A DNA stretch of 64,000 bases from NCBI RefSeq assembly GCF_023517775.1, contig NZ_CP082904.1, positions 2,294,001 to 2,358,000 of the forward strand, read 5' to 3'. The first letter of the stretch is position 1. Each line of letters begins with the position of its first letter. Shown here one piece after another: positions 13,926 through 39,540 of this stretch. This DNA comes from Mixta hanseatica (lineage in GTDB: Bacteria; Pseudomonadota; Gammaproteobacteria; Enterobacterales; Enterobacteriaceae). Below the pieces are notes generated by a model. That model was not told where the DNA came from. It worked only from the letters and a program-made list of their open reading frames with translations, and did not search any database. The translations under genes were made by a program, and so were the position numbers.

Positions 13926-14211
13926 GTTGCTTCGCCCGATAGCCGTGCCACGTCAGCTGGCAAAAATTCAGCGCTGCCGTCCGCTGGCGTCCTTTAACAC
14001 CCTGCCGCCGCAGGGCTGGCGGCTGATTTGGCAACGACTGGTGCAAAGCTTTCGTCTGATGGTGGGCGTACAGGACTACCAAAATTATCTGCGTCATATG
14101 CAACAGCAGCATCCTGCTGCGGTACCCATGACGGAAAAGGCGTTTCATCGCTATTGCCTTGAGGCGCGCTTTCCGGCAAAAGACGGCAAAATGGGGAAAT
14201 GCCCCTGCTAA
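13918..14211 (+). CDS. YbdD/YjiX-family small partner of CstA
   Basis: A 97-residue protein ending in a short Cys-rich tail (GKMGKCPC), the signature of the YbdD/YjiX family always found behind cstA or btsT. The preserved centre includes MVGVQDYQNYLRHM. The family is usually about 65-70 residues, so this one has about 30 extra residues at its N-terminus. I chose the ATG at 13918 because TAAGGAGG lies 7 bp upstream; it overlaps the transporter stop by 8 bp, implying translational coupling. The function is unknown; it probably acts with the transporter. Confidence 0.8.
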   Translation: MSELLRPIAVPRQLAKIQRCRPLASFNTLPPQGWRLIWQRLVQSFRLMVGVQDYQNYLRHMQQQHPAAVPMTEKAFHRYCLEARFPAKDGKMGKCPC

Positions 14212-14440
14212 ACTATCAGCAGCTGTAACCTTTTCCCTGGGGCTGATACTATCGGCAGGCAGAGCAAACTTTCAGGCGCCCTAAAATGGGCGTCTGGTTA
14301 ACGATCTTTAGCCTTTAGCGCGAAATGTTCATTTTTTACGGAAAAAAATCGCTTTTAGAATGCATAATGCTTATGTATTCCGTCATAAAGTGTTACTAAA
14401 CTAATGATAGTCGCGCGATCTGCTTAACAGGATGGTTTGT

Positions 14441-16426
14441 ATGCTTGAAGATCAGGGTCAAACATTGCTCTTTACACTGTTTGGTACCCGTAGCCCTTAC
14501 TGGCAGCTTACCTCCGACAGTGATGCCCTAAAACTTTCCCGGGAAGAACTGGCGGAAACGAGCCTGGCCGTCCCACTCACCGCTTCGCAGGCGCAGCTGC
14601 TGCGTGCCATGACGGTGGTCACCACCAGCGTAAACCTGGTGATAAATTTGCGTGGCGAAGAATTACCGATGCATTTTGTCGGACGTAAAGTTAATCAGGG
14701 AGAATGGGCCGGCACCGCGTCGGCATGGGGTGATACCTCCTCCGTGGCGCGCGATCTCACCCAGGGGCTCTCCTTCGCCGAGCAGGTCGTTTCAGAAGCC
14801 AACTCGGTTATCGTCATTCTCGATCAGAACGGCAACATTCAGCGCTTTAACCGCCTCAGTGAGGAGTACACCGGTTTAAAAGAACAGGAAGTTATCGGTC
14901 GCAATGTGTTTCAGCTTTTTATGACCCGTCAGGAGGCGGTGGCCTCACGCCGCAACATAACCGGTTTTTTCCGTGACGGCAGTTCGTATGAAGTGGAACG
15001 CTGGGTTAAAACCCGTAAGGGCCAGCGCCTGTTTCTGTTCCGCAATAAATTCGTGCACAGCGGCAGCGGGAAAAATGAAATATTTCTGATCTGTTCCGGC
15101 ACCGATATTACCGAGGAACGTCGGGCCCAGGAACGCCTGCGTATTCTGGCGAATACCGATACCATTACCGGCCTGCCGAATCGTAACGCTATTCATCAGC
15201 GTATTAGCGAAGTGCTGGAAAAACGTGAACAGCAACAGATCGGCGTGGTCTATCTGGACCTCGATAATTTTAAAAAGGTTAACGACGCCTACGGTCATAT
15301 GTTTGGCGATCAGCTGTTGCAGGCGGTATCGCTGGCGGTACTTACTTGCCTGGAGTCCCAGCAAACGTTGGGCCGTCTTGGCGGCGATGAGTTTATCGTA
15401 CTGGCGGAAAACAGTTCGCAAACCGCGCTGGAAGCGATGGCGCTACGTATTTTGACGCGCCTGCGCCAGCCCTTCCGTATCGGCCTGATTGAAGTCTATA
15501 CCGGCTGTTCGCTGGGCATCGCGCTGGCGCCGCAGCATGGGGAGGATCGCGAAAGCCTGATCCGCAATGCCGATACTGCGATGTATCACGCCAAAGAGAG
15601 CGGCCGCGGTCAGGCCTGTGTCTTTTCCGCTGAGATGAATCAGCGCGTCTTTGAATATGTCTGGCTGGATACCAATTTGCGCAAAGCGCTGGAGCAACAG
15701 CAGCTGATTGTTCACTATCAGCCTAAAATCAGTGCTGGTGACGTTGTAACGGGCGCCGAAGCGCTGGTGCGTTGGCTTTCACCGGAGCGCGGCCTGATTC
15801 CGCCCAATGAATTTATCTCTTACGCTGAGGAGTCGGGTTTGATCGTGCCGCTTGGCCGCTGGGTCATGCTTACGGTGCTCCAGCAAATTGTCGCCTGGCG
15901 TCGCCAGGGGATCTATTTGCGCGTGGCGGTCAATGTTTCTGCGCGCCAGCTGATCGACCAAAGCATCTATAACGACCTGAAGCAGGCGCTGCAGCTGAAC
16001 GGCATGAGCACCAGCCCGATTGATATTGAGCTGACGGAAAGCTGTTTGATTGAAAATGAGCAACAAACGCTGGCCTTAATGCATCAATTCCGCGAGCTGG
16101 GCGCCGAGGTACATCTGGATGATTTTGGCACCGGCTACTCATCGCTGTCACAGCTGGCTCGCGTGCCGATTGACGCTATCAAACTGGACCAAAGCTTTGT
16201 CCGTGATGTCTACAAACAGCCGATTGCCCAGTCGCTGGTACGGGCGATTGTGGCGGTGGCTAAAGCGCTGAATCTGCGGGTGATTGCTGAAGGCATTGAG
16301 AACCAACAGGAAGAGGCGTTTTTGCTGGATAACGAGGTGGACGAACGTCAGGGCTACTATTATGCGAAGCCAATGCCCGCAGATAAAATGGAGCATTGGC
16401 TTGCTCAGCGTCCTGCCAGATCCTAA
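14441..16426 (+). CDS. pdeR: PdeR/RpfR: PAS-GGDEF-EAL c-di-GMP enzyme and DSF receptor homologue
   Basis: A 661-residue protein, the same length as E. coli PdeR (YciR/Gmr). Residues 1-105 form the N-terminal domain that in RpfR contacts RpfF. A PAS domain follows (about 110-225), then a diguanylate cyclase-type domain with intact GGDEF at 314-318, then an EAL phosphodiesterase domain starting with EALVRW at 440 and containing DDFGTGYSSL. In E. coli it controls csgD; orthologues next to rpfF are named RpfR and change c-di-GMP turnover on binding cis-2-unsaturated fatty acids. I chose the ATG at 14441 (AGGA at 8 bp) over 14432. It converges on rpfF, which supports the RpfR role. Confidence 0.94.
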   Translation: MLEDQGQTLLFTLFGTRSPYWQLTSDSDALKLSREELAETSLAVPLTASQAQLLRAMTVVTTSVNLVINLRGEELPMHFVGRKVNQGEWAGTASAWGDTSSVARDLTQGLSFAEQVVSEANSVIVILDQNGNIQRFNRLSEEYTGLKEQEVIGRNVFQLFMTRQEAVASRRNITGFFRDGSSYEVERWVKTRKGQRLFLFRNKFVHSGSGKNEIFLICSGTDITEERRAQERLRILANTDTITGLPNRNAIHQRISEVLEKREQQQIGVVYLDLDNFKKVNDAYGHMFGDQLLQAVSLAVLTCLESQQTLGRLGGDEFIVLAENSSQTALEAMALRILTRLRQPFRIGLIEVYTGCSLGIALAPQHGEDRESLIRNADTAMYHAKESGRGQACVFSAEMNQRVFEYVWLDTNLRKALEQQQLIVHYQPKISAGDVVTGAEALVRWLSPERGLIPPNEFISYAEESGLIVPLGRWVMLTVLQQIVAWRRQGIYLRVAVNVSARQLIDQSIYNDLKQALQLNGMSTSPIDIELTESCLIENEQQTLALMHQFRELGAEVHLDDFGTGYSSLSQLARVPIDAIKLDQSFVRDVYKQPIAQSLVRAIVAVAKALNLRVIAEGIENQQEEAFLLDNEVDERQGYYYAKPMPADKMEHWLAQRPARS

Positions 16427-16435
16427 TTAATCCTG

Positions 16436-17302
16436 TTAACTTACTTTACGCAGCTGCGAACTGAGGCGGTTCTGCAGCTGTACCAGACGCTCCATATAGG
16501 CCAGATCTTTTTCCTCAATGGTAAACGCGTAATCCACCCAGTCTTCCGTGATATCCATCAGCTCGCCGCGCGTAAGCTGTAATACGCGCTGACGCGCTTT
16601 TAGCATCGCCTTTACACCGTTGAGCTTGGGACGCAGCGTATCGATAAAGGTACGCGTAGCGCGATAGCCCTCGCCCTGCTGGAACAACCGATCAACCAGG
16701 CCGCGCGTTTCAAACCACTCGGCGGTATGGCTTTCTCCCTCACAAATCAACTCTTCAGCCAGTTTCATACCGGCGCGGCGCGCCACCAGCGAATAACCGC
16801 CCATGCCGGGGAACAGGTTAAAGGCGATTTCCGGAAAGCCCATGCGGGCATTATCTTGCGCCAGTATAAAGTGATGGGCTAACGCCGCCTCGAAACCGCC
16901 ACCCAGCGCGCTCCCCTCAACCATGGCGATGGTCACCGCGCCGACATCAAAACCGCGTGCCGCGGCATGGATGCAGTCAACGCAGGCACGCGCATAAGCG
17001 CGTAGCGCCTCGCGACGACCATTTTTTATGCACTCTACAAAGAATTGCAAATCACCGCCAGCGTTAAACATCGCCGGAACTAGCGACCCCGTTACCCAGA
17101 AATCGATAGGTAAACCCGAGCGCTGAGCGGCATAGCGAAGATTCATGATTTCTTCGATAAGCGCATGGTTAAAAGAAGGCCGCGGTTCCGCACGTAGCAT
17201 CATCCACATCGTGCGCCGCTCTTCTTCATACCAGGCATCCAGCTGAGTGGTTTGTCCAGATTCGGTAAACAGTCGGCAAGTAGGTTGGTTCATTAATGAC
17301 AT
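16436..17302 (-). CDS. rpfF: RpfF-type DSF (cis-2-unsaturated fatty acid) synthase
   Basis: A 288-residue crotonase-fold protein matching RpfF, which acts on acyl-ACP as both dehydratase and thioesterase to make diffusible signal factors. The diagnostic features are FNAGGDLQFF at 79-88, and two catalytic glutamates: Glu138 in ALGGGFEAAL and Glu158 in GFPEIAFNLFPGMGGY, equivalent to Glu141 and Glu161 of Xanthomonas RpfF. Ordinary enoyl-CoA hydratases do not share this set. GAGGA precedes the ATG at 17302. It lies tail to tail with pdeR/rpfR (9 bp apart), the receptor partner. E. coli retains pdeR but has no rpfF. Confidence 0.88.
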   Translation of the reverse strand: MSLMNQPTCRLFTESGQTTQLDAWYEEERRTMWMMLRAEPRPSFNHALIEEIMNLRYAAQRSGLPIDFWVTGSLVPAMFNAGGDLQFFVECIKNGRREALRAYARACVDCIHAAARGFDVGAVTIAMVEGSALGGGFEAALAHHFILAQDNARMGFPEIAFNLFPGMGGYSLVARRAGMKLAEELICEGESHTAEWFETRGLVDRLFQQGEGYRATRTFIDTLRPKLNGVKAMLKARQRVLQLTRGELMDITEDWVDYAFTIEEKDLAYMERLVQLQNRLSSQLRKVS

Positions 17303-17406
17303 AATCTCATCCTCAATATAGTTGATGCGTTAAACGCAACACCAGCCTAATGCAGAGTGAGACAACACTGAATGAGCGACTGATTTTTAAGATAAAATAT
17401 AAAAAA

Positions 17407-17426
17407 AACCCCGCCGTAGCGGGGTT
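17407..17426 (-). terminator. Terminator of kdgT
   Basis: An 8-bp stem, AACCCCGC with its complement, and a 4-nt loop; on the minus strand it is followed by eight T and lies 16 bp past the kdgT stop. Confidence 0.9.
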
Positions 17427-17442
17427 GAATTTTTAAGCAGAA

Positions 17443-18426
17443 TTATTTGATCGCTGCGCGCTGACCTACGGCTGCACGATAACGTTTGACCTGCTTCGAA
17501 TAAAGCGCAGTAATGATTGGCACTAACAGCGAGGTAACGATAACCGACGTGGCGACCAGCGCCGTCGCGGCTGGCGCTATTGGCTTAAACTGCGGCACCA
17601 TCTCAGCAATCAGTACCGGCGTCGCTACCGCCGCACCTGCCGAACTGGAGGCCGCGACGCCGGCAGTGCCGTCACCGCCGCCAATCAGACGATCGGCAAT
17701 GATCAATGGGATACCGGTTACGATGATGACCGCAACGCCCAGCATGATGCCCAGCAGCCCGGTTTGCGCGATGACTGCCAGATTAATAGTGTTACCCAAC
17801 GCAAAGGCAAAGAACGGAATCAGCGTTTGTACCGCCTTGCTGAAAAACTCGCGTAGTTCGGGATCGAGGTTGCCTAAGGTAAAACCGACCAGGAATGGTA
17901 GCACCGCGCCGACAAAAACGTGCGGCTCAAAGGAGGCGATACCGGCAGTGCCTAAAATCACCATTGTCATTAACGGGCCCGACTCCAGTGACATCAGCAC
18001 GAAGGCGCCCGCCTCTTCTTTAGTCCCATACTGCTGCATTAATGAGGCATAGAGACCGCCGTTGGTCATATCCATCGCCGCGACCAGTGCCAGCGTTGAC
18101 AGCCCGGCCAGCATCCCCACTTCAAAACCGTTCTCCGGGATCAGTCGCGAGGCGATGGCAGCCACTACCCAGGCCACGGCAATTTTGGTTATCACCAGCG
18201 TGCCCGATTTACGCAGCACGGTACCGGTGGCGCTTAATTTTATCGACGCCCCCATACAAAAGAACCAGACCGCCAGTATAGGCACGGTTCCGCTCATTAA
18301 TCCGTTGGTAAAAGATCCAAAGTACTTACCTGAATCGGGAGCAAACGTATGGCAAAGCGCCCCTAAAAACAGGGGCACCAGCATCATCCCACCCGGAATT
18401 TTATCGATAGCTCGTTTAATTTGCAT
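17443..18426 (-). CDS. kdgT: 2-keto-3-deoxygluconate permease
   Basis: A 327-residue inner-membrane permease, identical in length and close in sequence to E. coli KdgT, which imports 2-keto-3-deoxygluconate (a pectin/hexuronate breakdown product) with protons. Characteristic stretches are [19 protein letters not shown] near the start, [18 protein letters not shown], and [18 protein letters not shown]. The ATG at 18426 has GGTGGA at 7-8 bp; an upstream in-frame GTG at 18438 is not needed. A 15-bp palindrome resembling a KdgR box lies in its promoter region. The neighbouring gene is araD, so sugar-acid and pentose functions are side by side. Confidence 0.95.
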
Positions 18427-39416: not shown

Positions 39417-39509
39417 ATGATGATGTTTAAGCATAAATTAATGATGGGATGGTGGCGCGCTTCTGCTGAAGGGCGACGATGTCACGCATCTGTATTGATC
39501 ACATGCTGA
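39417..39509 (+). CDS. trpL: trp operon leader peptide (unusually long, 30 codons)
   Basis: An ORF with three tandem ATG codons after a GGGGG Shine-Dalgarno element. It contains adjacent Trp codons at 39450-39455 in the context GWWRAS, matching the E. coli leader core GWWRTS. In E. coli the stop follows at once; here the in-frame stop is 51 bp later, at 39507. A TGA at 39467-39469 lies one frame away, so a single-base difference would give a normal short leader. The 1:2 pairing (39448-39456 with 39481-39490) is present. Confidence 0.75.
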
Positions 39510-39515
39510 TACCTG

Positions 39516-39540
39516 AGCCCGCCGATGCGGGCTTTTTTTT
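39516..39540 (+). terminator. trp attenuator (3:4 terminator)
   Basis: AGCCCGC-CGAT-GCGGGCT followed by eight T, the same sequence type as the E. coli trp attenuator. It begins 6 nt after the stop codon of the leader frame. Confidence 0.92.

Follow-up and report, generated by a model that had tools for sequence, protein, structure and literature searches.

The rpfF-rpfR locus of Mixta hanseatica and altered receptor inputs in relatives that lack rpfF

Introduction

When a bacterial lineage loses the gene for a signal synthase, what becomes of the receptor that served it? The question is raised by two convergent genes in a stretch of 64,000 nucleotides from Mixta hanseatica (contig NZ_CP082904.1, positions 2,294,001 to 2,358,000; hereafter the window), which a first-pass annotation read as a complete rpfF-rpfR pair, that is, a putative synthase of the diffusible signal factor (DSF) type facing a receptor with the domains of cyclic di-GMP (c-di-GMP) turnover. 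We hold with high confidence that the locus is a complete and ordinary RpfF/RpfR signalling module, and that the inputs of relatives without rpfF were altered after the gene was lost. The pair is not new to enterobacteria, since RpfF/RpfR has been published as functional in Cronobacter (PMC4698668), and a 2026 review places Pantoea and Erwinia among the holders of RpfF (PMC12838280). The locus adds Mixta to these holders, and the new element is that receptors of relatives without rpfF often appear, from their sequences, to have changed at the input domains with their catalytic residues unchanged.

Results and Discussion

A complete RpfF/RpfR pair in Mixta

Both genes are intact open frames, and the host belongs to Mixta (Erwiniaceae), with an RpfF 99% identical to that of Mixta theicola. 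The pair is laid out in the window as follows.

14441..16426, plus strand: rpfR (orthologue of pdeR/gmr/yciR), 661 amino acids from ATG; NCBIfam NF007474, 1190.8 bits (cut-off 782); PDB 6dgg/6dga
14444..14725, plus strand: FI (RpfF-interaction) domain; PDB 6dga, E=1e-23, residues 5-98 counted from 14432
14783..15112, plus strand: PAS domain, predicted to bind fatty acid; PDB 6dgg, E=8.5e-61
14945, 14954, 14987, 14999 and 15044 (first bases of codons), plus strand: PAS ligand residues S169, N172, Y183, R187 and N202; alignment, Cronobacter numbering
15149..15610, plus strand: GGDEF domain, with the GGDEF motif at 15380-15394; Pfam PF00990, 154.7 bits
15674..16372, plus strand: EAL phosphodiesterase domain, with its motif at 15758-15766; Pfam PF00563, 233.3 bits
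16427..16435, no strand: gap of 9 bp between the convergent rpfR and rpfF; sequence
16436..17302, minus strand: rpfF, DSF-type signal synthase of crotonase fold, 288 amino acids; PDB 6dgn/5fus, E about 1e-125; 185/287 identical; tree
17048..17068, minus strand: FNAGGDL motif, RpfF residues 79-85; sequence, alignment
16889..16891, minus strand: E138, glutamate at catalytic position; sequence, alignment
16829..16831, minus strand: E158, glutamate at catalytic position; sequence, alignment

PDB and Pfam matches confirm the domain order FI-PAS-GGDEF-EAL that had been proposed for RpfR: FI and PAS find their counterparts in Cronobacter crystal structures (PDB 6dga and 6dgg), and GGDEF and EAL both pass their Pfam cut-offs with motifs intact. 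The frame has a second in-frame ATG upstream, at 14432. We prefer the start at 14441 because, in the alignment to the Cronobacter FI chain, residue 2 of that chain falls on residue 5 of the longer protein, and because AGGA sits 8 bases 5' of this ATG. Counted from 14441 the ligand residues bear their Cronobacter numbers, and counted from 14432 they become 172-205. The residues S169, N172, Y183, R187 and N202 contact the fatty acid in the PAS pocket, and in Burkholderia the mutation of four of these five raised c-di-GMP (PMC6361424). All five are present in Mixta RpfR, and together with the intact convergent genes and the matches to PDB 6dgn, 6dgg and 6dga they bear out the reading of the locus as a complete pair.

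For RpfF, the top PDB match is 6dgn, the crystal structure of Burkholderia RpfF (E=1.4e-125, residues 1-287), to which 185 of 287 residues (64%) are identical, and both substrate-tunnel residues named for RpfF, Phe 44 and Phe 88 (PMC6361424), are present. The first-pass annotation had relied on the two catalytic glutamates and the FNAGGDL motif to set the protein apart from a beta-oxidation hydratase. All three are there, but the glutamates do not discriminate, because a search of the same genome found three further crotonase proteins, of which two carry both (frames of 703 and 723 amino acids, FadB/FadJ-like as judged by length alone); FNxGGDL, unlike the glutamates, does set RpfF apart from them. 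In a tree of 18 proteins, the window RpfF groups with Burkholderia RpfF (RpfF_Bc) and eight RpfFs of the family with support of 99. It lies apart both from the three further crotonases of Mixta and from a set of more remote RpfF-like proteins, two sets that branch from each other with support of only 47 and 54, on long branches. An ordinary beta-oxidation hydratase that lies beside pdeR by chance would explain the Pfam assignment (ECH_1), the glutamates shared with other crotonases, and a score of 188.7 bits against the NCBIfam RpfF model NF053515, well below its cut-off of 550; this cut-off is also missed by two order-level relatives, as partial translations (251.6 and 256.1 bits), and the window protein passes the broader model PRK08788 (414.7 bits, cut-off 177). 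Set against the identity to RpfF_Bc, the supported RpfF group, the FNxGGDL motif and the convergence of 99 of 100 copies with rpfR (see below), a chance neighbour of this kind appears extremely improbable.

Previous work has established that RpfF produces BDSF (Burkholderia DSF) from acyl-ACP (acyl carrier protein), that BDSF in the PAS domain activates the phosphodiesterase, and that FI inhibits RpfF (PMC6361424). By analogy with Burkholderia and Cronobacter, the chemistry, binding and output in Mixta would run similarly: RpfF would make a cis-2-unsaturated fatty acid from acyl-ACP, the fatty acid would bind in the RpfR PAS pocket, switch on the EAL phosphodiesterase and lower c-di-GMP, and the FI domain would bind RpfF and restrain synthesis.

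Distribution of the pair and probable loss of rpfF

We surveyed 392 sampled genomes of the family (rpfF match at E<=1e-60, rpfR at E<=1e-150) and found rpfR in 140 and rpfF in 99. None of the 99 genomes with rpfF lacked rpfR, a one-way dependence of rpfF on rpfR, and 99 of 100 rpfF copies converge with rpfR; measured between the ends of the matches, the two lie within 140 bp in 91 cases and are 317-6285 bp apart in 8. From 239 loci found, 80 named loci were kept, and in 80/80 rpfR was convergent and carried S, N, Y, R and N at the ligand positions. The remaining copy belongs to G538, which has a second full-length rpfF (C7:1005864-1006724) 280 kb from its rpfR-rpfF pair and a single rpfR match. 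Five genomes (G112, G140, G348, G589 and G646; loci L140, L141, L155, L211 and L227) have rpfR and rpfF spaced by 1.4-1.7 kb, and in G524 (L194 2916-8521) the space between the two is occupied by a cluster of fimbrial genes, among them those for an usher and a PapD-type chaperone.

Forty-one survey genomes hold rpfR without rpfF, and we refer to these receptors as orphans. On the full topology they fall into 10 clades among the paired receptors, and on that from GGDEF and EAL into 12, which would fit repeated loss from a paired ancestor; loss is further favoured by the constant convergent position of rpfF and by the scraps of the gene that G188 still holds. At that locus (L100 3492-3620) rpfF residues 18-39 and 271-289 remain with the middle deleted, and its genus-mates G166, G248 and G638 retain rpfF. 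A search for further remnants with 99 RpfF proteins (E<=1e-3) found none in the other orphan loci (37/38) or in the E. coli locus. Two genomes with truncated rpfF, G596 and G659, may be losing the gene at present. Judging from these patterns, the paired state is most likely the older one in the family, with rpfF lost about 10-12 times.

The earlier claim that the locus shows the ancestral pairing is thus probably right for the family and has to be qualified beyond it. An order sample of 295 genomes comprised 23 of this family and 272 of others, and among the latter rpfR was absent (0/272) and 9/272, all of one genus, had an rpfF-like gene, at 36-39% identity; the family ancestor may therefore have acquired the pair. 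In a phylum sample of 219 genomes no rpfR turned up beyond the family, and the rpfF-like genes numbered two, at 42% identity. In the genus with the rpfF-like genes (g27, 9 genomes, another family) one locus was read (L242 5866-10465, in G138), where the 36-39% relative of RpfF faces, in convergent orientation, genes for a receiver-HD protein and for a hybrid histidine kinase with HisKA, HATPase, receiver and Hpt domains, an arrangement that resembles the Xanthomonas rpfF-rpfC-rpfG type.

As a separate matter, we considered whether DgcM took the place of the lost rpfF as a partner of the receptor, and rejected this as the pattern was not clean: among 42 of the 99 paired and 38 of the 41 orphan genomes, a DgcM match (1e-60) was present in 11/42 and 20/38, respectively, and an MlrA-like match (1e-30) in 78 of these 80 genomes.

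Ligand residues in paired and orphan receptors

We compared 99 paired receptors with 39 orphans, that is, 38 full-length survey orphans and E. coli PdeR. The comparison excluded three truncated orphans (G316, G344 and G478), the alignments did not include the second rpfF copy of G538, and G596 and G659 were counted as paired. No paired receptor (0/99) departs from the five PAS ligand residues, whereas at least one differs in 22/39 orphans (21 of the 38 survey orphans, and E. coli). Within the survey orphans, changes number 7 at S169, 11 at N172, 2 at Y183, 2 at R187 and 0 at N202. Parsimony requires 12 changes, which in one of the equally short resolutions all fall on orphan branches, and some of these are parallel, with S to A at four places in the tree (or three and one reversal) and N to Y at two. 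Orphan branches make up 22% of the catalytic branch length, and at equal rates the probability that they receive all of the changes is about 1e-8, a figure that assumes uniform rates and the placement of all 12 changes on orphan branches, with no lineage matching. The output half of the protein shows a different picture: 14 positions of the GGDEF and EAL motifs, whose catalytic roles we take to be as generally described, show the residues of the paired receptors in 38/38 survey orphans, save for one A to S in the EAL motif of G547.

The invariance of the paired receptors also bears on whether the module carries a population signal at all. RpfF might instead be a general acyl-ACP thioesterase, with its product a metabolic signal to RpfR and saturated C12 the main ligand; since C12:0 has been reported inactive (PMC6361424), and since R187 and N202, the extra contacts to BDSF, are invariant in 99/99 paired receptors, we regard this as rather unlikely.

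Beyond the ligand site, mean identity to the window protein is 0.52 in paired against 0.40 in orphan receptors for FI, 0.86 against 0.82 for PAS, 0.76 against 0.77 for GGDEF and 0.69 against 0.69 for EAL. Positions that are invariant in paired receptors yet variable in orphans amount to 8/15 in FI, 22/59 in PAS, 6/52 in GGDEF and 9/74 in EAL. As a control, paired clades were drawn 200 times, each draw comprising 17-65 genomes with a total catalytic branch length of 3.2-3.8; the means were 10% for FI (maximum 25%), 4% for PAS (12%), 10% for GGDEF (18%) and 9% for EAL (17%). One paired genome, G502 (L191), carries a stop codon in frame at rpfR residue 309, before the GGDEF motif, and an rpfF without internal stop; it was included in the trees and rate tests, and the position counts alone were repeated without it, giving 8/15, 22/59, 6/53 and 9/74.

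Rates of the input domains

The ratio of FI to catalytic branch length is 3.55 in orphans and 1.45 in paired receptors (3.63 and 1.44 on the second topology), and it exceeds that of the paired sisters in 10/10 orphan clades (p=0.002), or in 10/12 on the second topology (p=0.027). Several observations weigh against reading these contrasts, and those at the ligand site, as consequences of rpfF loss. The raw FI contrast is partly one of lineage, as the paired sisters of orphan clades themselves score 1.25-3.9, and the orphan excess shrinks once clades are set beside their sisters; PAS branch length is not significantly above that of the sisters (6/10, p=0.19, and 8/12, p=0.23), so that the PAS result rests on specific positions; the sister sets overlap, which makes the p-values optimistic; the trees are unrooted, with no outgroup, and assume loss without regain; and all five ligand residues are kept in 17/39 orphans.

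The raised FI ratios of paired sisters and the PAS branch test would both be expected if the difference between paired and orphan receptors were a lineage effect, with fast evolution of input domains in one branch of the family and no relation to rpfF. Ligand-residue changes are zero in 99 paired receptors, however, and they occur in the orphans G364 and G635, whose genera include sampled paired members, and for these reasons we consider a lineage effect not very probable. Taken together, these data suggest that rpfF loss most likely releases or retunes the inputs of the receptor, with FI and the PAS ligand positions drifting and the GGDEF and EAL active sites kept.

E. coli PdeR as a possible former receptor of the signal

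PdeR (Gmr, YciR) of E. coli is the orthologue of Mixta rpfR, and aligns along FI, PAS, GGDEF and EAL with 40% identity to the Mixta protein in FI and 79% in PAS. As the first-pass annotation had it, in the two annotated records examined no rpfF adjoins the gene, which lies beside rnb. A pdeR match is present in 5372/5426 E. coli genomes, and in 0/5426 did a DNA query of rpfR and rpfF reach 80% cover at one place, though a very diverged copy could escape such a search. At the ligand positions of the aligned record S, N, Y and N are kept and R187 is replaced by L, and the motif bearing this L recurs in 8/8 records, that of K-12 among them. Waldron et al. have noted that E. coli holds the receptor without the synthase and have suggested C12:0 as a possible regulator (PMC6361424); R187L is not mentioned in the parts of that paper examined. 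At the place expected for rpfF, E. coli has the small gene ymiD (L247 2648-2776), which is convergent with pdeR and overlaps its 3' end. YmiD was considered as an rpfF fossil and rejected, as the same gene from another strain has no significant similarity to RpfF.

An orphan PdeR might still sense the DSF of other species, in which case loss of the synthase would not have been loss of the input. Such eavesdropping would suit the 17/39 orphans in which the ligand site is intact, and the catalytic motifs that the survey orphans retain. Against it stand the changes in the other 22, in part parallel ones from S to A and from N to Y, and the leucine of E. coli, and we consider it somewhat unlikely. 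The evidence for a further proposal appears to us evenly balanced, namely that loss of the synthase made the receptor a differently tuned sensor, its FI domain drifting without a partner and its PAS ligand site reshaped in parallel by changes from S to A, from N to Y and from R to L, and that E. coli PdeR is a former quorum-sensing receptor which would no longer bind the ancestral signal in the ancestral way and would read another ligand or none. We found no title or abstract opening that describes input-domain change after rpfF loss, although it may be in print.

PdeR is a central biofilm switch in E. coli, and the altered site gives a concrete and testable reason to think that its input is not the fatty acid to which its ancestor responded. 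More generally, the comparison of paired and orphan receptors amounts to a natural experiment on the fate of a receptor after loss of its signal maker, and the five residues would make it possible to class genomes as probable senders, listeners or former listeners.

Neighbourhood of the pair in the window

The pair is flanked by rnb, a cstA-like gene (under its NCBIfam cut-off), kdgT and an araD-family gene, with yciH, pyrF and lapB further out (identified through their translations and E. coli gene order). A scan for terminator-like sites listed none inside the 9-bp gap; it listed 8 in 14100-17600, against a shuffle mean of 4.5 (sd 2.6), among them the following.

17407..17426, minus strand: terminator-like hairpin with T tract, between kdgT and rpfF; terminator-like site scan

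Elsewhere in the window, at 39444-39540, lies a tryptophan operon leader (Rfam RF00513, 46.3 bits).

Comparison with known systems

E. coli PdeR is a trigger enzyme that acts with DgcM and MlrA (PMC5635695), and differs from Mixta RpfR in having no rpfF and L for R187. Mixta has an MlrA homologue (54%) and no DgcM match at 1e-60, and the curli switch of E. coli is therefore not simply transferable to it. The RpfF-RpfC-RpfG system of Xanthomonas shares the RpfF synthase (PMC4504480), although the signal is received there by a hybrid kinase together with an HD-GYP regulator, and not by a PAS-GGDEF-EAL protein as in Mixta. Closest are the RpfF/RpfR systems of Cronobacter turicensis and Burkholderia cenocepacia (BCAM0581/BCAM0580): although the Mixta FI domain is diverged (87 bits over 94 residues), the domains and the ligand residues are the same, and in Burkholderia, as in Mixta, rpfF and rpfR are convergent (PMC4504480).

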